The notes under the pieces are model-generated. The model saw nothing but the letters and a program-made list of their open reading frames with translations. It made no database searches and had not been told where the DNA came from. A stretch of 24,980 nucleotides of DNA, taken from positions 1 to 24,980 of IMG/VR virus record IMGVR_UViG_3300027733_000192. The stretch is one strand, 5' to 3'. The translations under genes and the position numbers were made by a program. This stretch comes from a virus. This document shows, piece after piece, positions 1 to 24,198 of the stretch. The stretch's first letter is position 1. Each line of letters opens with the position of its first letter.

Positions 1-6
1 AAAATT

Positions 7-23
7 GGGGGGGGGGGGGGGGG
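7..23. repeat. Run of 17 consecutive G at window start
   Basis: Seventeen uninterrupted G residues follow AAAATT at the very start of the window. No gene covers it. A run this long at a sequence end is often an assembly or two-colour sequencing artefact, but it could be a genuine homopolymer because the next 500 bases are also strongly G-rich. Confidence 0.9.
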
Positions 24-67
24 TCAGTATGAGTCGCCGGGGTCAACCCCCCTCGTTTTTGAAAAAT

Positions 68-1346: not shown

Positions 1347-2264
1347 TTAAGCGGCGGTTGCGGCGGTTGCGCGGATAACAAACCCCGAAAGATCGGCGCG
1401 GGCTTTGCCTTTTGCTTTTAGGATTCCAATTCTTCCCCGCCCGTCCGCCGCTTTCCTATCTAGAAAGCGCAAATCATGGCGGTCAGCGGAAAAGGTGGGG
1501 CGGGCTTCAGTCATACCAGGCAAGGCAAACCGTTGCCCCGCTTTAATGCCGTCCGCAACGGCGGCAATATTTACCCCAGCGGCAAGGGCGATCCCAGCGG
1601 CGGCGGCGTTATTCTCCGCAAGGGAAAAGGTAATATGGTAACCCTTAGGCAATTCTCCCTTAGCATAGGCAAGAGCACGGCGTAAGCTTTTACTGTAGTC
1701 ATAAAAGCGGCAGGTGGGGAAATCAGTGAACAGCTCAGGGGCTAACTTTTCCCAAGGGAGATCGCTTGTACCGTTTAACCTAACAACGGGCTTTAAGCCC
1801 CGCCGCTTTGCCTTGCGTACTAGGGCGGCAATTTCCCCCTTTAGCGCGGCAATAAATCCAGCGCGGTTGTCATGTAGGAAACGGGTACGCATAACACGGG
1901 CGGCATTAACCGCTTCAAATATGCCCGCCCGCCCCGCCGTAAAGAGACAAGCGGCAAGGCAACCGGCGGACGCATGGGGGCAAAGGTTTCCCACCCCCGC
2001 AAGCTGACCAGGCGCAAGGTATAAAATCCCCGTAAGGTAACCGCTTGCCGTTCCCTTATCCGTTTTAGCGTCCGCTTCCACTGACAGCAAATAGGACGGC
2101 ATATAAAAGGGAAGCAAAGCGGCGGGGTGAATGATCGGCGCGGGGCGGCGGAAAAGCAGCGGGGCGGGGCTTGCGTAATCCCCGCGCAAGTTAAAGGCGG
2201 GGGCTTTTGTGGGGCATAGGTTTGCCGCTTTGACCGGCGGCACGGTTTGTTTTGTGGGTTTCAT
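1347..2264 (-). CDS. gp88-family phage protein
   Basis: A 305-residue member of the family named after mycobacteriophage gene product 88, which is widespread in phages and of unknown function. The family signature starts near residue 60: SVEADAKT, YLTGILYLAP (76-85), NLCPHASAGCLAAC (93-106), AARVMRTRF (121-129), VRLNGTSDLPWEKL (161-174), FYDYSKS (187-193) and YHITFSLAENN (209-219). The Cys at 95, 102 and 106 could bind metal, but this is inference. The ATG at 2264 has a TTCCC-N4 leader like its neighbours. The ATG at 2102 also fits and would remove a 54-residue proline-rich extension that relatives, as I recall them, usually lack. It is the one identifiable gene in the leftward operon and marks the operon as phage-derived. 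Confidence 0.85.
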   Translation of the reverse strand: MKPTKQTVPPVKAANLCPTKAPAFNLRGDYASPAPLLFRRPAPIIHPAALLPFYMPSYLLSVEADAKTDKGTASGYLTGILYLAPGQLAGVGNLCPHASAGCLAACLFTAGRAGIFEAVNAARVMRTRFLHDNRAGFIAALKGEIAALVRKAKRRGLKPVVRLNGTSDLPWEKLAPELFTDFPTCRFYDYSKSLRRALAYAKGELPKGYHITFSLAENNAAAAGIALAAGVNIAAVADGIKAGQRFALPGMTEARPTFSADRHDLRFLDRKAADGRGRIGILKAKGKARADLSGFVIRATAATAA

Positions 2265-3564: not shown

Positions 3565-3834
3565 TTAAAGGGAAAGGCAACGTTTGCTTTCAATGGAGAA
3601 AGCTTCACGGGCTTCCATGTAAGCGGCAAGGGCGGCACGGACGGCCGTTTCACCGGCGGCAGGTTTGCCGTCCGCTTCCCATTTGCCGCGCAAATCTATA
3701 AGGGCGCGGTGAAGCAATCCGCTTTTAACACAAGCGGCGACGGCGGCGGAATCTAGCCACGGGGCGACGTGCAAGCCTAGGGCCTTAGCGGCGGCACGGG
3801 CTTTGATTGAAACGGGGTCAGATTGAATTTTCAT
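3565..3834 (-). CDS. Hypothetical 89-residue protein, first gene of the leftward operon
   Basis: The protein starts MKIQSDPVSIKARAAAKALG; the rest is helical with conserved-looking WLDSAAVAACVKSG and HRALIDLRGKWEADGK segments. The ATG at 3834 is preceded by an AT-rich stretch and not by the TTCCC leader, consistent with its being the promoter-proximal gene. No known domain. The intergenic region upstream holds a 13-bp palindrome at 3897-3909 that could be its operator. Confidence 0.55.
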   Translation of the reverse strand: MKIQSDPVSIKARAAAKALGLHVAPWLDSAAVAACVKSGLLHRALIDLRGKWEADGKPAAGETAVRAALAAYMEAREAFSIESKRCLSL

Positions 3835-3896
3835 AATAATGTATTGGGTACGGGATAAGACAAAGGGAAGCACGGCCAGCCGTCAACGTCTATTTA

Positions 3897-3909
3897 TCAA
3901 AGCCTTTGA
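3897..3909. promoter_or_regulatory. 13-bp perfect palindrome, possible operator
   Basis: TCAAAGCCTTTGA is a perfect palindrome around a central C. It lies 63 bases upstream of the first leftward gene, inside the short AT-rich island that should hold the leftward promoter. A convincing -35/-10 pair could not be assigned; TTGACG on the minus strand just downstream of it has no good -10 at normal spacing. Confidence 0.4.
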
Positions 3910-3993
3910 CTCTTTTATATAGAAGGGCGGAAAGGCGGGGCGGAAGGGGTAGGGCGGCACGGCCGGCAACGGGGCTTGCCCGATCAGCCAAGC

Positions 3994-4018
3994 GGCACGG
4001 CACGGCACGGCACGGCAT
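3994..4018 (+). repeat. (GGCAC)4-GGCAT pentanucleotide tandem repeat
   Basis: Four perfect GGCAC units followed by GGCAT. GGCAC doublets recur nearby at about 4086-4096. It lies in the gene-free divergent region. Confidence 0.85.
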
Positions 4019-4216
4019 AGGGCGGACGGCAAGCCCCACCCCACCCCGTGCAACCCCACCCCATGCGCGGCAGCTTAATCCTAAGCGGCACGGCACGGGG
4101 CGGCGGCATGACACAAGCCCCACACCGGCACGGCAACCCCGCCGGCATAGGCACCCGCACGGGCGGCAACGTCAACCCCGGCACGGTGGGGCGGCCAATC
4201 GGCGGCCAGGCGTTTA

Positions 4217-4249
4217 GTGGGGCAACGGTGGGGCAACGGTGGGGCAAGG
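4217..4249 (+). repeat. Three 11-bp tandem repeats GTGGGGCAACG
   Basis: Two identical copies (4217-4227, 4228-4238) and a third with one change, GTGGGGCAAGG (4239-4249). Period 11, about one helical turn, so a protein could bind the repeats on one face. The 11-bp G-rich repeat at 136-156 at the other end of the small-gene module has the same period but a different unit. Confidence 0.85.
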
Positions 4250-4254
4250 TCGCC

Positions 4255-4301
4255 CGAATCCTGACCTATTCACTAATCATTAGCGCCCCACTAAGGATTC
4301 T
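4255..4301. repeat. Second copy of the CGAATCCTG / TAATCATTAG element
   Basis: CGAATCCTG (4255-4263), ten unrelated bases, TAATCATTAG (4274-4283, part of the palindrome CTAATCATTAG), then GGATTC (4295-4300), which is the inverse of GAATCC at 4256-4261. The copy at 68-104 lacks the ten bases. See that entry. Confidence 0.5.
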
Positions 4302-4384
4302 CTTTGGCGGCCAGGAAATGGGGGGGGCGAAGCCCCACCGACCCCGTCAAAAACATGGGGGTAAACCTGCAAAAACCATTCAAA

Positions 4385-4413
4385 TTGATATGTCCGGCTA
4401 TATGTGTTGTTAT
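4385..4413 (+). promoter_or_regulatory. Possible sigma70-type promoter for the rightward operon
   Basis: TTGATA (4385-4390), a 17-base spacer and TGTTAT (4408-4413) give 5/6 and 4/6 matches to the bacterial consensus, in an AT-rich island 140 bases upstream of the first rightward gene. The 12-bp direct repeats begin immediately after the -10, where a repressor would block transcription. The match is modest and the host sigma specificity is unknown. Confidence 0.35.
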
Positions 4414-4442
4414 AGCAACCACAGTAGCAACCACAGTAGCAA
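4414..4442 (+). repeat. 12-bp direct repeats (iteron or operator-like)
   Basis: AGCAACCACAGT occurs twice in tandem (4414-4425, 4426-4437) with a third partial copy AGCAA (4438-4442). The repeats are perfect and lie between the putative promoter and a series of palindromes. They could be binding sites for a regulator or initiator protein. Confidence 0.7.
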
Positions 4443-4458
4443 TGAATATAGACAATTC

Positions 4459-4501
4459 ATTTACTTTGTATCTACCTAAAGGTAGATAAGACAAAGTAAA
4501 T
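4459..4501. promoter_or_regulatory. Large near-perfect inverted repeat (43 bp)
   Basis: ATTTACTTTG and CAAAGTAAAT form the outer arms and TATCTACCT and AGGTAGATA the inner arms around a two-base AA centre. A three-base AGA bulge on the right side is the only interruption. It could be a hairpin in the leader RNA of the rightward operon, a tandem operator or an origin element. There is no T-tract after it, so it is not an obvious intrinsic terminator. Confidence 0.7.
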
Positions 4502-4517
4502 AATGGTCAGACCATTA
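4501..4517. promoter_or_regulatory. 17-bp perfect palindrome, probable operator
   Basis: TAATGGTC-A-GACCATTA is perfect over 17 bases. It shares one base with the end of the 43-bp inverted repeat. Its size and AT-ended symmetry are typical of sites for dimeric helix-turn-helix repressors. It lies 40 bases before the first rightward gene. Confidence 0.6.
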
Positions 4518-4519
4518 TT

Positions 4520-4543
4520 GGCTTTACGCTTGGAAGCGTAGCC
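4520..4543. promoter_or_regulatory. Third inverted repeat before the first rightward gene
   Basis: GGC, a TT bulge, TACGCTT, a GG loop, then AAGCGTA and GCC. The 7-bp inner and 3-bp outer stem lie 14 bases upstream of the ATG at 4558, close enough to affect ribosome access if transcribed. Confidence 0.55.
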
Positions 4544-4557
4544 ATAATGTCTTCCCA

Positions 4558-4929
4558 ATGAGCCAACCCTTCCGCCCCTTCCGCCGCCGCGCCGGCCAGC
4601 CGCCGATCACTAGGCGTCCCGAGTCGCCGTGGGCTAGGGCGTGGCGTCTGTCCCCCGAGCGGATGAGGCAGCACATTGGCCAACTGAACAACGCCCGGAC
4701 GGCCAAGTCGGAGGAAGCCGCCCAGCTCGTCCAGGCGGTCATCAACCTGATCCCCGCCGACAAGGGCTACCGCGCCCACGAACTCCGAGACCTGTTCGCC
4801 GGCGAGTGGGGACGGTGCTACGACGAGCCTCTGACCAAGAAGGACGCCTGGAACAAGATTCGCAAGGCCATGCGTCATGGGATGCTGGGTCGGGATGACA
4901 ACGGTTTGATATTTCCACGGCACGGGTAG
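4558..4929 (+). CDS. Hypothetical protein, possible winged-helix DNA-binding protein
   Basis: A 123-residue basic protein. The N-terminal 35 residues are Arg/Pro-rich. The C-terminal half (about residues 65-120: VINLIPADKGYRAHELRDL, then DAWNKIRKAMRHGMLGRDDNG) has the helix pattern and the short final hairpin typical of winged-helix domains. It is the first gene after three palindromes and the possible promoter, so it may be the regulator that binds them. No specific family recognised. ATG at 4558 is preceded by TTCCC but with only one base between. Confidence 0.55.
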   Translation: MSQPFRPFRRRAGQPPITRRPESPWARAWRLSPERMRQHIGQLNNARTAKSEEAAQLVQAVINLIPADKGYRAHELRDLFAGEWGRCYDEPLTKKDAWNKIRKAMRHGMLGRDDNGLIFPRHG

Positions 4930-4970
4930 GCGGGTTGACTTGTTCACAGGTTAGGCACATTGGTGGCTGT

Positions 4971-5207
4971 GTGGTCAACTTTGAAGAACAACCAGAGGAA
5001 CTAGAAACCTTCGTAGGCGAACTGGCGGAACTCCGTCGTATCGCTGGACTGAACATCGTCCGTGCCGCCGACATCCTTGATCGGCATCAAGACGAGGAGG
5101 TGGCCAAACTTTTAATTCACGAAGCAGCCGTTATGCTGACCGTGGTTAGCAAGGTTGAATACCTTCTGGGGGTAGACCCTCCAGAAAACACCGATGCCAA
5201 TCTATGA
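4971..5207 (+). CDS. Hypothetical acidic helical protein, 78 residues
   Basis: The residues after the chosen start (VNFEEQPEELETFVGELAEL and on to LLIHEAAVMLTVVSKVEYLL) form an all-helical acidic protein. GTG at 4971 is chosen because the 12 residues upstream in the same frame (from TTG at 4935) look unlike protein; TTG at 4935 is possible and has a G-rich AGGCGGG before it. It overlaps the next gene by 14 bases. No known domain; the small gene directly before the packaging genes could be any accessory function. Confidence 0.5.
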   Translation: MVNFEEQPEELETFVGELAELRRIAGLNIVRAADILDRHQDEEVAKLLIHEAAVMLTVVSKVEYLLGVDPPENTDANL

Positions 5208-5772
5208 CGAATACCAAAGGTTCTGGAAGCGGCTTTCCAAAGTGGAAAGGGCGGCGTTGGAAGCGGCTGGCTTCAATCCCCATCGACCCGAAGACGCTGG
5301 AGTCCCTTTCGCGCATCGGTATTTTTCTGGTGAACCCTCTGATGGTGGTGACGTCCTCGGAGGACCGGGTGGCGAAGAAAACTTTGTCCAAGGCGGTTGG
5401 GGTCAAGGCTACGATATCAACGAAGTGCAAGCGGCACAATGGCGGATGCGCGAAAGGGAGGAAATCCAAGTGAGCAATCGAACTTTCACGCAGGACGAGG
5501 TGCTGGACATTCTCCGCAAGGTGATTGCCGTCATTGACCTGTCGACCCATGCGGAAGTACGGCTGCACGGAACCTGCATCAAGCTTGCCCTTGGCATCCC
5601 CGATCAACCGACCATGACAGCCTTGGCCAATCAGCACAGCCTGACCCGAGCGGCGATATCGGCGCGGGTAAAGACCATCCAGCGTAACCTAAAGCTGCCT
5701 CCGTCGCTGTACATGAAGTCCGACGCAGCTTGCAAGAAGCTCTCCAACGCTCGGAGGAAGAAACTTAAGTGA
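5194..5772 (+). CDS. Phage protein with C-terminal helix-turn-helix
   Basis: A 192-residue protein. Residues 1-45 (WKRLSKVERAALEAAGFNPH) may be a small helical domain, followed by a Gly-rich linker (50-72). Residues about 95-190 look DNA-binding: a helical region with HAEVRLHGTCIKLALGI (119-135), then TALANQHSLTRAAISARVK (142-160), which fits a helix-turn-helix of the sigma-region-4 type, and a basic tail. It overlaps the small terminase gene by four bases (GTGA), so coexpression is likely. It may be a late-gene regulator or a packaging-related DNA-binding protein; undecided. Confidence 0.6.
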   Translation: MPIYDEYQRFWKRLSKVERAALEAAGFNPHRPEDAGVPFAHRYFSGEPSDGGDVLGGPGGEENFVQGGWGQGYDINEVQAAQWRMREREEIQVSNRTFTQDEVLDILRKVIAVIDLSTHAEVRLHGTCIKLALGIPDQPTMTALANQHSLTRAAISARVKTIQRNLKLPPSLYMKSDAACKKLSNARRKKLK

Positions 5773-6398
5773 GTTCCGATAAGCCTCGACCCATTGACCT
5801 TGCCGGCCGCTTCGGTGTCACCAAGCAGGCCATCAACAAGTTTATCCAAGCGGGGATGCCCATCGACTCAATCGAGTCCGCCGAAGCCTGGTACATGGCA
5901 AGGGGTGCCGGTCGCATGGGTTCCACTGTCCGACCCGATAAGGACTTCAATGAGACCGTGGAGCGTCAGCGCGAATTGAAGGCTCTGGCCTACCAGCAGT
6001 ACCTTGACGACCTAGGTAGTAACTCGCCAGACGCCAGCAAATCCTATGCGACCTACGACAAGTTGGTGAAGACGCTAGTAACGCTGGAAAAGGAACTCCA
6101 AGCCCGACAGATTGCCAGCCGTGAGTACATTCGTACTCAGACCGCCATCGAAAGGTTCGGGCGAGTGTTCGCGCAGGTTCGTGAGGAGGCTACTCAGCTC
6201 GGGACGAAACTGGCGTCGAGGGTCAACCCTGACAACCCAGGCCGTGCAATGAAAGCCATCGACGACGAAGTTAAGCGAATGCTTGAGCGTCTGTCCGCTG
6301 CCGCTGGCTACGCCGAGCAGGCGGTCGTGAAGGAAGCAGACACGGAAGACCCGACAGAGGTTGAGGGCGACGAGGATTCCGTCGACGAAGTCGAGTGA
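5769..6398 (+). CDS. Terminase small subunit (Nu1-like)
   Basis: A 209-residue protein, against about 180 for lambda Nu1. An N-terminal winged helix-turn-helix (residues 7-45, IDLAGRFGVTKQAINKFIQA with a following AWYMAR helix) should bind the packaging site. The middle (about 60-185) is a long charged helical region for oligomerisation, and the C-terminus is strongly acidic. GTG start at 5769 overlaps the previous stop as GTGA, and the end overlaps the large subunit in the same way. Small subunits are poorly conserved, so the call rests on the helix-turn-helix, the size and its place right before the large subunit. Confidence 0.75.
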   Translation: MSSDKPRPIDLAGRFGVTKQAINKFIQAGMPIDSIESAEAWYMARGAGRMGSTVRPDKDFNETVERQRELKALAYQQYLDDLGSNSPDASKSYATYDKLVKTLVTLEKELQARQIASREYIRTQTAIERFGRVFAQVREEATQLGTKLASRVNPDNPGRAMKAIDDEVKRMLERLSAAAGYAEQAVVKEADTEDPTEVEGDEDSVDEVE

Positions 6399-8260
6399 TC
6401 ATCGACCCTCATACAATCGATACTTTCGAGGCTCACATCCGTGCGATGATGACGCCCGACCCCGAAGGCGACATCGTGCAATGGCTGGAAGCCAACGTGC
6501 GTGAGGTGCCAGGCTCTCCGCAGCCCGGGCCGTTCCGAGTGGAGTCCACTCCGTTCCTTGCTCCCATCCTACGGGCGTTGACCGACCCAGAGATTACCAC
6601 CGTCGTCGTGCTTGGAGCGGTGCAGATGGGCAAATCATCTCTGCTGGAACTGTGGTCGACTTTTATCCCTGCCCGTTCGCCTGGGCCGACCCTGCTCTTG
6701 CAGGACGTCGACGACAACGCGCAGGACTGGCAGAAAGATCGCCTACGTCCAATGTGGGAAGCCACGCCGGCTACGCTGTCCAAGATGGAGGACTCCGAAC
6801 GCAACCAATGGAAGAAGACCCGTTTCGAGCGTAACACCGTCTGGGTGCTGGGTGCGAACAACAAGAAGAACCTTCAGCGTCGTTCCATCCGATTCCTCGG
6901 CGGTGACGAAGTCTGGCTTTGGCCCAAGGGTCACTTGAACGAAGCCCTTGCGCGTCGCACGGCGTTCATCTGGCAAGGCAAGTCGCTGCTTGTCTCGCAG
7001 GGCGGCGTCGAAGGCGACGACATTACCGACCTGTGGAACCAGTCCGACCGCCGGGAGTGGACGTTCAAGTGTACGCAATGCGGTACGCGCCAAGCCTACG
7101 AGTGGGAGCAACTGATCTACCCCGAAGACGCACGGGAGCCGAACGGCTGGAACCTCGACAAGGTCAAGGCCGGTTGCACCTACGAGTGCAAGTCGTGCAA
7201 ACACCGTTACAAGGACTCCTTTGAGGTTCGCGCCGAATTAAACTTGTCGGGCGAGTACACGCCCATGAATCAGAACGCTCCCAAGGGGGTTGTTGGATTC
7301 CATTGGAACTCACTCTGCGCTCAATGGGGTCTAGACTGGGGCAAGCTCGCCGAAATGGCAATCCGTGCCAAGCAGGCTTTCGAGGAACACGGTGACGATG
7401 TCGCCCGTCGTGAATTTAAGCAGAAACGTCTGGCCCTCTCTTGGTCTGATGATCCAGACGATGGCGGTGGAGAAGTCATGCCTCAGGGCTACAAGATGCT
7501 CGACGAATGGGATGCCGAAGCGTTCATGGTCGATAGCAAGCTCGCCGAACCGCCGTTCAAGGACGAGTACAAAAAAGCCAAACAGTACGCACGGCTCCGC
7601 TTCATGGCGGTCGACGTGCAGCGTAAAGGATTCTACTGGGTAGTCCGTGCCTGGGCATTGGACGGAAAGTCCCGCATGGTGCAGTGGGGCTACTGCGAGA
7701 CCGAAGATCAGTTGCGCGAAGCCCAACGCAAACTAGAGGTGGCCGACTTCTTTGTCTTTGTCGACTCCGGCGACGGACCCAACACCGACACCGTTTACCG
7801 TATGTGTGCAAAGTACGCATGGAACGCCACCAAAGGTTCTGGCCAGAATGAGTTCCCTTGGCGTATCCAGACGCCCTATGGCATCAAGGTGGCCTATCGC
7901 CCATACGCCCGTGCGAAGGTAATCCAAGTCGGCCAGACCTCCTGCAAACTTTACCTCTTCTCTAATTTGTACTTCAAGGACTCCATCTCCCGCTTACGCC
8001 GCGCCGGGCATCACACTTACCCAGAGGACGCCGGCGACGAGTACCGTAAGCAGATGCAGTCGGAGCATCGCACCCGCCAGGCGAACGGTCAGGCCATCTG
8101 GTTACCCATTGGCGACCGTGCTAACCACCTATGGGACGCCGAGATCATCGGGATGCTGCCGGCCCTTATGGCCAAGCTCATCGGGCGCGGCAAGAACCGC
8201 AACGGTAAGCCGGAAGACCGTAAGCCTGAGGAAAAACCAGTGGAGGAAGAAACCGCTTGA
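6395..8260 (+). CDS. Terminase large subunit (lambda gpA family)
   Basis: A 621-residue protein (lambda gpA is 641) that cuts concatemeric DNA and drives it into the prohead by ATP hydrolysis. The Walker A-like loop is GAVQMGKSS (74-82) and Walker B is FLGGDEVW (167-174; D171, E172). A zinc-ribbon-like set of Cys lies at 226, 229, 261, 265 and 268. The C-terminal nuclease domain starts near RFMAVDVQ, with candidate metal-binding acids D407, D457 and D581 (HLWDAE). The end is a Lys/Glu-rich tail that may contact the portal. GTG start at 6395 overlaps the small-subunit stop (GTGA). Confidence 0.95.
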   Translation: MIIDPHTIDTFEAHIRAMMTPDPEGDIVQWLEANVREVPGSPQPGPFRVESTPFLAPILRALTDPEITTVVVLGAVQMGKSSLLELWSTFIPARSPGPTLLLQDVDDNAQDWQKDRLRPMWEATPATLSKMEDSERNQWKKTRFERNTVWVLGANNKKNLQRRSIRFLGGDEVWLWPKGHLNEALARRTAFIWQGKSLLVSQGGVEGDDITDLWNQSDRREWTFKCTQCGTRQAYEWEQLIYPEDAREPNGWNLDKVKAGCTYECKSCKHRYKDSFEVRAELNLSGEYTPMNQNAPKGVVGFHWNSLCAQWGLDWGKLAEMAIRAKQAFEEHGDDVARREFKQKRLALSWSDDPDDGGGEVMPQGYKMLDEWDAEAFMVDSKLAEPPFKDEYKKAKQYARLRFMAVDVQRKGFYWVVRAWALDGKSRMVQWGYCETEDQLREAQRKLEVADFFVFVDSGDGPNTDTVYRMCAKYAWNATKGSGQNEFPWRIQTPYGIKVAYRPYARAKVIQVGQTSCKLYLFSNLYFKDSISRLRRAGHHTYPEDAGDEYRKQMQSEHRTRQANGQAIWLPIGDRANHLWDAEIIGMLPALMAKLIGRGKNRNGKPEDRKPEEKPVEEETA

Positions 8261-8379
8261 CGGACATCATACCAGCAGTAGAGTTAATCCAAGCCGTCTG
8301 GCCCTTCTGGAAAAACCACGGGTGGCTCTTGTGGATCGTACATGGGTTGGGTCAGACGGCCCCTTTTACACGGGGCTAA
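8257..8379 (+). CDS. Possible 40-residue hydrophobic protein
   Basis: A TTG start at 8257 overlaps the terminase stop as TTGA, the same overlap style as the GTGA junctions upstream. The peptide (MTDIIPAVELIQAVWPFWKN, then HGWLLWIVHGLG) has a Trp-rich hydrophobic stretch. Its stop codon TAA is formed by the GGCTAAA of the recurrent late element at 8365-8384. Evidence is only context and composition; it may be untranslated. Confidence 0.35.
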   Translation: MTDIIPAVELIQAVWPFWKNHGWLLWIVHGLGQTAPFTRG

Positions 8380-19218: not shown

Positions 19219-19545
19219 ATGTCCTGTACCCATCATCAGTTTAAGCGTGGGGTCACCTTTAATGGGGTGGGAACCTATACCACGGAGCCAGGCTGGCCGG
19301 CAGACCTTACTGGGGTGACCATCGTCACCGCGCTGCTCGACGCCCGTAACCAGCTCCACTATCTGGATGTGGCCATTACCAGCCCTACCACCTTTACGGT
19401 TTCCTCCAACCTGACCCAAGAATGGCACCCCGGAACCGCTTACTGGGATATCAAGTTTTACGAAAATACGACTGAAATTTTCTATTCGGCTACCGTCCGA
19501 TTGGAAATTTTGCCCAACGTCACCCCTAACAAAGTTTCTAACTGA
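19219..19545 (+). CDS. Small beta-rich tail protein before the fibre gene
   Basis: A 108-residue protein, predicted all-beta: HHQFKRGVTFNGVGTY, DLTGVTIVTALLDARNQLHY, and a C-terminal WDIKFYENTTEIFYSATVRL. This strand-rich plan resembles small immunoglobulin-like or baseplate-attached domains preceding fibres in other phages. No family assigned with confidence. It overlaps the fibre start (TGATG), which suggests the two products act together, perhaps as adaptor and fibre. Confidence 0.55.
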   Translation: MSCTHHQFKRGVTFNGVGTYTTEPGWPADLTGVTIVTALLDARNQLHYLDVAITSPTTFTVSSNLTQEWHPGTAYWDIKFYENTTEIFYSATVRLEILPNVTPNKVSN

Positions 19546-21752
19546 TGTCCTTCACAATCAGCATTAACGACCAAGCCGCCTTTGAAGTCCAGTTTGCTGG
19601 CCCTGCCGGCCCGACCGGCCCTCAAGGCCCGCAGGGCATTCAAGGCATTCAAGGCATCCAAGGCGTCAAGGGTGATCAAGGCGACCAAGGCATTCAAGGT
19701 ATCCAAGGCATTCAGGGTATTCAGGGTGTCAAGGGCGACAAAGGTGATCAGGGAGACCAAGGCATTCAAGGCATTCAAGGTATCCAAGGTGACAAGGGCG
19801 ACCAAGGCGACCAAGGTGACAAGGGTGACCAAGGCGACCAAGGCCCCAAAGGCGATCAAGGAGATATTGGCCCCAAGGGCGACCAAGGTGATCCAGGCGT
19901 TGGCGTTCCTGCTGGCGGTACAACGGGTCAGTCTCTCGTCAAGTCCAGCAATTCCGATTACTCCACCGCCTGGGCCACGGTCTCCAGCAGCACAGCATGG
20001 GGCAGCATCACTGGCACCCTCTCTTCCCAGACCGACCTTCAGAACGCGCTGAACGCCAAGCAGTCGACGGCTGGGATGACGTCCTATTTGAGCAAGGCGG
20101 GGAACCTCTCTGGCCTTACCAGCCTTTCCACGGCCCGAGATAATCTTAACCTAGGTACGGCCAACACCCCCGCTTTTGCTGGCCTTGATGTCCTCGGCAG
20201 CGGAGGCAATCAAACACACCTGACGCCGACTAGCCTTACGCTGACGCAGACTGGCTCTGGCATCTTCACGATCCAGCCATCTCAGGGTATCGTCTTCCCA
20301 GACTCGACGGTGCAGACCACTGCCTACCCCGGCCCGGTCGGAGCTACGACTTGGGGAAGCATTATTGGTAGCATTGTCAATCAGACGGATCTCTACAACG
20401 CTCTGTATGCCAAGCTCGACACTGCGACTGCCGCTTCGACCTATTACCTTCAGACGAACCCGGCAGGTTTTATTACGTCCTCGGCTCTGACGGGCTACGC
20501 AACGGAGTCTTGGGTCACTGGGGAGCTTGGATCTTATCTACAGCTTTCAGGCGGAGCGATGACGGGTTCAATTACCAACTCAACCGCCACCTACGATACT
20601 GAGATGGCTGGCGACCTGTTCGGCGTCCAACTCTCTGCGGATCACACGAAGGGAACGACCGTTCAGTTTAACGGTTTAGACACTTACGACGGCGCAAGCC
20701 ACATGACTGTCACCCCGACCGGGCTGACTTTCCCTGACGCTACTGTCCAGACTACTGCTTACACGGGTGGTGGTGGCACTTGGGGTTCCATCACCGGGAC
20801 TCTCTCTAATCAGACGGATCTTCAAAGCGCGCTCGATGCGAAATACGACGTTACTAATCCGGCTGGGTTTATTACCTTTGGTGACCTGACTGGATACGCC
20901 ACCGAGTCTTGGGTGACCGGGCAGGGTTACATTACTTCTGGATATTTACCTAACATTCAAACCGATATTGGTTTTGATACGAGCATCGGAACGCCTCAGA
21001 CTCAACGCCTACTTATAGATGGCGTATGTGAATTGAGTCCGGGATCTGGCATCACTCAAGCTCGACTTAATTTCAGTTCAAACTCACAACCGAATTCTCC
21101 TGTAAACGGAGATATGTGGGTAAATCATACCTACGGTCTTAATGTGGTATGGGGTGGCATTACTAACCTGATGGCTACTCAGATTTGGGTCAATGGTAAC
21201 CTTAATCTGAAAGCGAGCTTATCTGGCGCTACTTTCACCGGGAAGGTCAACCTCGCAACGCTTGGCGTAGCCACCCCTAGCATCAACCTTGGAGGTCAAT
21301 GCGACTCGGCTCCAGCGTCAGCGGCTAACGGCGACATCTGGATTTCAAACGCCGCTGCTCCCAAGCTGACATATAAAATGGGAGGTGTTAACTACAACCT
21401 GCCCGTCCTAAATCAGTTTAACACCTTCACCAATCAAATGGTGATTGATACGACTTCTGCTACGACTGCCGCGCTGCGCGTCACTCAGCGTGGAGCTGGC
21501 AACGCAATCGAGGTCGAAGACTCTACGACCCCGGACGCCACAAAGTTTGTCGTGGATCAGTTTGGCAAGGTCGGAGTCGGAACTGCCCCGGACGCTACTG
21601 CGGCCATCAAGGTTGATGCCAACGGTATTTCGTTCAATGGCCTAGTCTTCAACCCTACGGCTACCTCTGCACATACTGGAGGCTCAGACACGCTCGACCT
21701 CCTAGTGACCATTAACGGAACCAACTACCGTCTCGGCCTTCGACCCGCTTAA
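19545..21752 (+). CDS. Collagen-like tail fibre protein
   Basis: A 735-residue receptor-binding candidate. After an 18-residue start, about 34 uninterrupted Gly-X-Y triplets (residues 19-118, such as GIQ, GDQ, GVK and GDK) should form a collagen-like triple helix. Then come repeated fibre modules: three WGSITGTLSxQTDLQxAL-type repeats (near 150, 270 and 410), two NPAGFIT...YATESWVTG units, and two FPDxTVQTTAY units. No C-terminal autocleaving chaperone is recognised. The 9-bp DNA repeats of the collagen part invite length change by recombination, a common way to adjust fibre length. Confidence 0.9.
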   Translation: MSFTISINDQAAFEVQFAGPAGPTGPQGPQGIQGIQGIQGVKGDQGDQGIQGIQGIQGIQGVKGDKGDQGDQGIQGIQGIQGDKGDQGDQGDKGDQGDQGPKGDQGDIGPKGDQGDPGVGVPAGGTTGQSLVKSSNSDYSTAWATVSSSTAWGSITGTLSSQTDLQNALNAKQSTAGMTSYLSKAGNLSGLTSLSTARDNLNLGTANTPAFAGLDVLGSGGNQTHLTPTSLTLTQTGSGIFTIQPSQGIVFPDSTVQTTAYPGPVGATTWGSIIGSIVNQTDLYNALYAKLDTATAASTYYLQTNPAGFITSSALTGYATESWVTGELGSYLQLSGGAMTGSITNSTATYDTEMAGDLFGVQLSADHTKGTTVQFNGLDTYDGASHMTVTPTGLTFPDATVQTTAYTGGGGTWGSITGTLSNQTDLQSALDAKYDVTNPAGFITFGDLTGYATESWVTGQGYITSGYLPNIQTDIGFDTSIGTPQTQRLLIDGVCELSPGSGITQARLNFSSNSQPNSPVNGDMWVNHTYGLNVVWGGITNLMATQIWVNGNLNLKASLSGATFTGKVNLATLGVATPSINLGGQCDSAPASAANGDIWISNAAAPKLTYKMGGVNYNLPVLNQFNTFTNQMVIDTTSATTAALRVTQRGAGNAIEVEDSTTPDATKFVVDQFGKVGVGTAPDATAAIKVDANGISFNGLVFNPTATSAHTGGSDTLDLLVTINGTNYRLGLRPA
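19605..19904 (+). repeat. Coding 9-bp-periodic repeat of the collagen-like region
   Basis: Tandem GGC/GGT-led nonanucleotides such as GGCATTCAA, GGTATCCAA and GGCGACCAA encode the Gly-X-Y array. Units vary at synonymous sites but remain close enough for slippage or recombination. Confidence 0.85.
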
Positions 21753-23235: not shown

Positions 23236-23536
23236 AAGCAATCTGCTGATTGCCGTCATGGGGCTGGTAGTCGCTGCCGCCCTTGCTGCCATCATGTCGG
23301 CTTGGATTGCAGGGTTCGTCCTAGACCAGCTCCAGTCCACCGAGGCGATGGCCATGATTATCACCGACGGGGGCATCAAGTCCGACTCCAAGGATTTAGA
23401 GCGGAATATGAATGCGGCGACCCTAGCCCTTCAGTCTTGCCGAGACTTGGGCTGGGCTTTGGGCGTAGGCTGTTTGGGGGTCGGGTTGGCAGTAGTAGTC
23501 AGACTACGGAAGAAAAGCCTGCCACGGGCTTCCTAG
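23195..23536 (+). CDS. Small two-span membrane protein, last rightward gene
   Basis: A 113-residue protein with two hydrophobic segments (about 16-45 and 85-104) and a helical loop between (residues 46-84). The start overlaps the holin-like gene by 41 bases in another frame. It may be a second holin-type or antiholin protein, or an inner-membrane lysis factor; no family was recognised. Its stop is part of CTAG (23533-23536), which also provides the stop of the opposite gene. Confidence 0.55.
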   Translation: MAKRNHPSAAGGSESNLLIAVMGLVVAAALAAIMSAWIAGFVLDQLQSTEAMAMIITDGGIKSDSKDLERNMNAATLALQSCRDLGWALGVGCLGVGLAVVVRLRKKSLPRAS

Positions 23537-24198
23537 GCGGCTTTCTTGGGGTACGGAAGGACTGGGTACTTCAGCTTCTTCATCAGTTCCTTCTTACGAG
23601 TCTTGGAACAATTAAAATAGATATACCGATACTTCATGCTGCTGAAGTACTCTTCGACCATATCTGGGCCAAATTGATCTATAATGTCCTGCTTGGCCAT
23701 GCGTTCACGCCGGCGGTAGACCGTGCCGCCAGAGTTGCCCGAGGCGTTCTTTGGCCTGAAGTACTTCATCTTGGGGCTGATACCCGTATAAATCCAGTTC
23801 GTTGCTTGGTAGATGTACCCAATATGCCCCTGCTCGGAATCCGCAAATGACACGATAATTTCAAAGGGGCATTGCCTAATGGCTTGGCCGACAAAGAAGC
23901 TTTCCGTGTTCTTGGGCATCGAGTCCTCAACCCATAACCTATTGAACTCGACCACGTTCTTGCTTTCGTCGTCGCCGCAAATGCCGTTGCAAAGAGTGTA
24001 GGAAGACGGCTTGCCGAAGACAATCACGCCGACAAGCCTGCCTTGCTGAAAGAAGTCATCGTTGGTCGTCTCGTTGGTGAATAAGCCAAACGACGCTGAA
24101 CAGGAACATTCCCTGTGCAGGTAATGATTCTTAACGATGGTATCCATTGCCAACCTATATTCGATAGGTCTTACCGTGAGCGTAGACACGATGCTCAT
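23533..24198 (-). CDS. mom: Mom-family DNA modification protein
   Basis: A 221-residue protein (phage Mu Mom is about 240). Family features are LVGVIVFGKPSS (55-66), EFNRLWVEDSMPKNTESFFV (84-103), SFADSEQGHIGYIYQATNW (117-135) and YIYFNC near 192. Mu Mom is a GNAT-fold enzyme that converts adenines to N6-carbamoylmethyl-adenine-type bases and so protects phage DNA from restriction. The ATG at 24198 overlaps the upstream ATPase stop (ATGA). No Com-like zinc-finger activator is visible in the window. Ends convergently with the membrane protein at 23536. Confidence 0.85.
   Translation of the reverse strand: MSIVSTLTVRPIEYRLAMDTIVKNHYLHRECSCSASFGLFTNETTNDDFFQQGRLVGVIVFGKPSSYTLCNGICGDDESKNVVEFNRLWVEDSMPKNTESFFVGQAIRQCPFEIIVSFADSEQGHIGYIYQATNWIYTGISPKMKYFRPKNASGNSGGTVYRRRERMAKQDIIDQFGPDMVEEYFSSMKYRYIYFNCSKTRKKELMKKLKYPVLPYPKKAA

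Follow-up and report, generated by a model that had tools for sequence, protein, structure and literature searches.

The left end of phage lambda provides the closest described parallel to the locus analyzed here, which lies in a 24,980-base stretch of DNA (positions 1-24,980 of IMG/VR virus record IMGVR_UViG_3300027733_000192; hereafter the window). In the lambda cos region (cosQ-cosN-I2-cosB; gpA/gpNu1), I2 spans bp 18-50, and the locus follows the same order of left-hand motif, nick site, A-tracts within about bp 18-50, repeats, and first late genes (PMC4856287). It also has a large terminase subunit (TerL) of the GpA type and probable 5' cohesive ends. Unlike lambda, it appears to have an overhang of about 15 nt rather than 12, it carries 12-bp tandem repeats plus an inverted copy where lambda has three spaced R sites, it contains an extra 100 bp of conserved hairpins, and its terminase genes are not the first rightward genes.

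These hairpins have parallels of their own. In the lambda N leader (nutL, RNase III hairpin, N gene), a small basic protein is encoded right behind a structured leader, as it is here; the operon at our locus, however, is late rather than early, and its first product is predicted to be winged-helix-like. The put RNA of HK022, a cis-acting antitermination leader, likewise has tandem bulged stem-loops leading a long phage operon, but put is ~70 nt long, has two stems, belongs to early operons (PMC9378689), and has no sequence link to our element.

We propose that the element serves a lambda-like 5'-cos phage as its left-end control region, with the cos region joined to the late operon's structured 5' leader; we assign this reading a probability of a little under 0.6. 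A 5'-cos left end is of a known kind; the structured leader is uncatalogued. The reading would define, from contig ends alone, the left genome end of a group of uncultivated phages. Hairpins that act as RNA would amount to an uncatalogued class of phage leader RNA; if they instead act as DNA, this would be a cos site of unusual build.

A tailed-phage fragment with divergent gene blocks

The window is a fragment of a tailed phage with a genome of ~36-37 kb. Relatives 36-37 kb long were found, three of them circular assemblies, as their end repeats of 123-127 bases show. The record opens with a 17-G run (window 1-30), and because it begins in this run, the left end of the window is probably an assembly break rather than a genome end.

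Gene content on both sides confirms that the element sits between divergent blocks. The rightward block encodes the small terminase subunit (TerS; 5769-6398, plus strand; phrog_57, E 6.7e-12), a lambda gpA-type TerL (6395-8260, plus strand), portal, head maturation protease, and capsid. TerL matches both GpA_ATPase (130 bits; cut-off 25.6) and GpA_nuclease (61 bits; cut-off 22.5) above the Pfam cut-offs. The leftward block, read in a complete relative, contains RecE, RecT, a Holliday-junction resolvase, a helicase, and a primase; in the window it includes a Gene product 88 family protein (1347-2264, minus strand; PF17338, E 9.2e-40). Elsewhere in the window are a probable tail fibre of 735 aa that carries a collagen-like GxQGxQG repeat (19545-21752, plus strand), and a Mom-like DNA modification protein (23533-24198, minus strand; phrog_1384, E 4.9e-52).

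None of the cultured phages is close, the best TerL matches having ~24% identity, and the stretch 3800-8300 gave no match by DNA similarity to 50,697 phage records. Verrucomicrobia phage P8625, at 24% identity, is among the top-scoring cultured phages by TerL; unlike here, all of its annotated genes are unidirectional, and such a region was not seen at the start of its record. The sole match in a host search of genome contigs, a Corynebacterium contig, reads like an ABC-transporter ATPase gene and was set aside as chance.

Repeats and hairpins upstream of the first late gene

The element, at 4381-4557, lies in an AT-rich island (GC 0.27-0.42) within DNA of GC 0.6-0.77. The repeats, palindrome and stem-loops listed there in an earlier note, made from the sequence alone, are all present, some of them larger than described. 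A 12-bp tandem repeat, TAGCAACCACAG, runs for 2.5 copies (2.4 in the earlier note) at 4413-4442. These copies occupy the loop of a long imperfect stem on the plus strand, P0 (4398-4451), laid out by hand in 21 sequences, and they form a candidate cosB-like array. The remaining helices are also given on the plus strand. P1 (4459-4501) is the bulged 43-nt inverted repeat, an 18-bp hairpin with arms of 11+7 bp around a TAAA loop that leaves AAG unpaired on the 3' arm at 4488-4490. P2 is a perfect palindrome that can form a local hairpin; its length had been underestimated at 17 bp (4501-4517) and is really 21 bp (4499-4519, centre 4509). The third stem-loop, P3 (4520-4543), carries a conserved unpaired UU on its 5' side and is extended by P4 to 4504-4557, up to the start codon, a form that is mutually exclusive with P2. 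The possible promoter placed among these structures was not supported, as the search returned a single weak minus-strand match against 0.9 expected.

The repeats and hairpins far exceed chance. The longest tandem match run is 18, compared to at most 11 in 1000 dinucleotide shuffles, and the plus strand folds with an energy of -57.3 kcal/mol, compared to -33.4 +/- 3.8 for shuffled sequences (z -6.3; 0 of 200 shuffles). The minus strand gives a z of -7.0. The longest perfect stem, 11 bp, was equalled by 3 of 1000 shuffles.

The element is real and deeply conserved, and its architecture outlasts nearly all of its sequence. It is single-copy, and about 50 contigs carry it ahead of their homologue of the 4558 gene, at the same position in all relatives read, down to ~31-34% protein identity (L050; G022 at 34%). 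When relatives with the same first rightward gene were checked for loss of the repeats, the opposite was found: they keep the element. Because the shape is kept across distant phages and the sequence hardly at all, we consider it a functional element and not an ordinary spacer. A lag of 12 nt gives the best autocorrelation in 9 of 11 lineages, a result reached by 0 of 2000 shuffles, and the repeat copies change in concert (CCACA/CCATT).

Checked for covariation, the inverted repeats show compensatory changes in relatives. In hand layouts of P0-P4, a procedure that favours pairing, P0 contains 260 Watson-Crick, 18 GU, 3 AC, and 12 other cells in 21 sequences; every P1 core pair is Watson-Crick (100%) across 20 sequences, and single columns show as many as four pair types; P2, found in every lineage laid out, has 133 of 133 pairs Watson-Crick in 19 sequences; and P3/P4 has 464 of 482 cells Watson-Crick. 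When the arms of P1 are swapped between lineages, pairing falls to 54%. RNAalifold, run on a sequence-only alignment, finds double changes in 12 of 36 pairs. The P1 bulge is 3 nt long (once 2) and always on the 3' arm, while its sequence varies (AAG, TAA, GAT, ATA, TAT, GAA, AAT). P3 is likewise kept, as is P4 in all lineages laid out except L050, and in nine sequences the P4 form is favoured over the P2 form by 5-13 kcal/mol.

A probable packaging cut beside the element

About 40 bp to the left of the repeats and hairpins is what looks like a cos cut, recognized from contig ends. The earlier note, whose listed structures were themselves borne out, had overlooked this adjoining feature. End repair fills 5' overhangs such that both ends carry the cohesive sequence, and assemblers put DNA ends at contig limits (PhageTerm, PMC5557969). 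The first late gene is present on 53 contigs, of which 21 have an end 195-260 nt upstream; the remaining ends are scattered. Seven right-hand contigs start exactly at CG(A/T)AGCC, and eight or so start 4-5 nt earlier, inside a G-run. On the left-hand side, three contigs, each from a different metagenome, run through the G-run and stop at one identical base, ...CGAAGCCC(C/A)(A/C)CCGAC, 15 nt further on. A 15-nt sequence common to both contig ends is the pattern expected of a 5' cohesive end that has been filled in. In one metagenome, contigs 3300044911_001203 and 3300044911_003050 meet at the candidate cut, and their sum, 37.1 kb, is one genome length. One further contig, 3300020044_007582 (G006/L096), opens with unrelated sequence fused to the leader (positions 1-60); the first 20 bases of this contig occur again, in inverted orientation, near position 31.1 kb on the reverse strand, and it is probably an assembly chimera.

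The overlapping contig ends place the putative cohesive end, CGAAGCCCCACCGAC, at 4328-4342. It would be 15 nt long, or 19-20 nt should the true ends lie at the earlier contig starts; the longest cohesive end described is 19 nt (PMC5557969). In the candidate cosN (4320-4346), a G-run precedes the putative cut on each strand, between GGGG and CGAAG on the top and between GGGG and TCGG on the bottom, an arrangement judged by eye in the window and in the L084-L098 group. A conserved motif 20-30 bp left of the cut (4289-4307; consensus ~RAGGAATCTATT) is cosQ-like by analogy of position only; it occupies the same place in all cos-crossing lineages examined (window, L084-L098, L177, L183, L185, L191, L200, L050, L221), where a AGGAATCTATT-like sequence is kept on the side that carries cosQ in lambda. 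On the right, A-tracts at +22, +36, and +44 from the putative left end (4349-4375) may form an I2-like bend segment; those at +36 and/or +44-46 are present in 10 of 10 lineages checked and that at +22-24 in most. From the contig ends, the A-tracts, and the left motif, we locate the element to the right of cosN and ahead of the first late gene.

It is quite improbable, in our judgment, that there is no cos here and that the contigs simply break for technical reasons at the G8 run and GC hairpin, leaving the element as only a leader or spacer. The G-run does sit at the break, the earlier right-hand starts fall within it, and several near-complete genomes assemble straight across the site. The three left-hand contigs, however, cross both the G-run and the hairpin to stop at an identical base 15 nt beyond, and the overlap of left and right contigs is exactly the putative overhang.

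Leftward of the cut, a low-complexity GC-rich stretch (GGCACGGCACGG...; 3960-4250) separates it from the first leftward gene. This stretch is highly variable between relatives and in the window contains GTGGGGCAACG three times at 4217-4249.

Possible roles of the repeats, hairpins and first late gene

In the arrangement we propose, terminase would make a staggered cut at about 4328-4342, so that 4328 would be the first base of virion DNA. Rightward from there, the A-tracts (+22 to +48) would lead to the 12-bp repeat array, itself set within an inverted repeat (+71 to +124), after which three to four hairpins (+132 to +230) would precede the first late gene. Like lambda cosB, the repeat array most likely anchors the packaging apparatus, either TerS or the winged-helix protein, beside the cut. 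For the hairpins, a role as RNA is most likely, with the late mRNA carrying them as its 5' leader. P1 and P3 would then be stems with unpaired bulges that face protein, ribosome, or polymerase. P2 and P4 would be alternative folds: P2 would form first, and in the window's group P4 would subsequently close the structure as far as the start codon.

The earlier note had offered three options for the region: a replication origin, a repressor-controlled switch, or a structured leader. The leader fits best, given the compensatory changes and the position directly 5' of the first late gene. An origin, with the repeats as iterons, the AT-rich island as an unwinding region, and the hairpins for priming, is very improbable; these three features do co-occur, and the leftward block has primase and helicase genes, but no initiator gene was recognised beside the element, and the skew check lends it no support. 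Among five near-complete relatives, cumulative GC skew, a measure confounded here by gene direction, is at or near its maximum at the element in three (G003, G004, G005), the opposite of the minimum of an origin; it is close to the maximum in a fourth (G002), and the fifth (G001) does not fit. We also consider it distinctly unlikely that the palindromes are operators through which the winged-helix product of the first gene controls divergent early and late promoters. The gene blocks are divergent, the product is predicted to be winged-helix-like, and the L191-L200 group has, past P3, a second palindrome (TTAGGGTGACCCTTA) that repeats P2. Against this, the promoter search found no promoter, and the window's group is without the second palindrome while the P4 pairing is kept (L177 GAAAAC:GTTTTC).

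For the hairpins, we favor an RNA leader role at slightly better than even odds. Their position and orientation 5' of the late operon, the conserved bulge, the internal loop, and the excess of GU suggest RNA; in P0 and P3/P4, GU outnumbers AC on the rightward strand by 34 to 4. These counts disagree with the other strand test, folding energy, which favours the minus strand in 16 of 23 leaders (mean 3.7 kcal/mol). The promoter search came back empty, so transcription of the leader is presumed. That the whole element instead works as DNA, the repeats and palindromes together making up a terminase-binding cosB in which the palindromes serve as double-stranded sites or cruciforms during packaging initiation, strikes us as unlikely. 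It would suit the adjoining candidate cut with its lambda-like spacing, the minus strand that folds at least equally well, and the cores of P1 and P2, which are Watson-Crick only, with neither GU nor AC; a complete lack of GU is unusual for RNA. Yet the inner stem of P1 ranges from 4 to 9 bp and its half-sites vary freely; what is conserved is the 3-nt bulge on one arm, not a fixed geometry for dimer binding. Lambda cosB, moreover, is described as three R sites plus an IHF bend, with hairpins unmentioned (PMC4856287). Within the RNA leader reading, we regard it as a tentative, rather unlikely extension that P0-P4 are a new class of phage structured RNA at the packaging end, which would either enable RNA polymerase, in cis, to transcribe the whole ~19-kb late operon or couple packaging to late expression by binding the winged-helix protein.

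Several specific forms of a leader were also considered. No conserved leader ORF was found, the longest ORFs lying in different frames and places among lineages, in contrast to a leader peptide attenuator; a small ORF over the repeats that looks coding in the window (MICPAICVVIATTVATTVAMNIDNSFTLYLPKGR) loses its frame among lineages. Rfam covariance models gave only sub-threshold matches in window positions 3800-5400 and none in five relatives, and a tRNA/tmRNA scan gave none. A packaging RNA like the pRNA of phi29 was dropped, the element being without a closing terminal helix or three-way junction.

The product of the first late gene (4558-4929, plus strand) is a small basic protein of 123 aa. 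An AF2 model (pLDDT 84) predicts a basic, Arg-rich N-terminal tail, a long helix, and the winged-helix-like C-terminal fold that had been suspected from the sequence. Comparisons to PDB and Pfam returned no family, and in structure comparison the model resembled other proteins only in the widespread winged-helix arrangement (VIA Z below 8). The predicted fold lends some support to the suggestion in the earlier note that this product is the binding protein; it could bind the repeats or the RNA.

Occlusion of the start codon by a hairpin was rejected as a universal function, because P4 adjoins the start codon in the window's group only and a gap of 20-30 nt lies between them in several other lineages; within the window's group alone, P4 could still close over the start codon. 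Most genes of the window have no Shine-Dalgarno sequence upstream, and C/A-rich text precedes many of their start codons, which hints at a host with SD-independent initiation.
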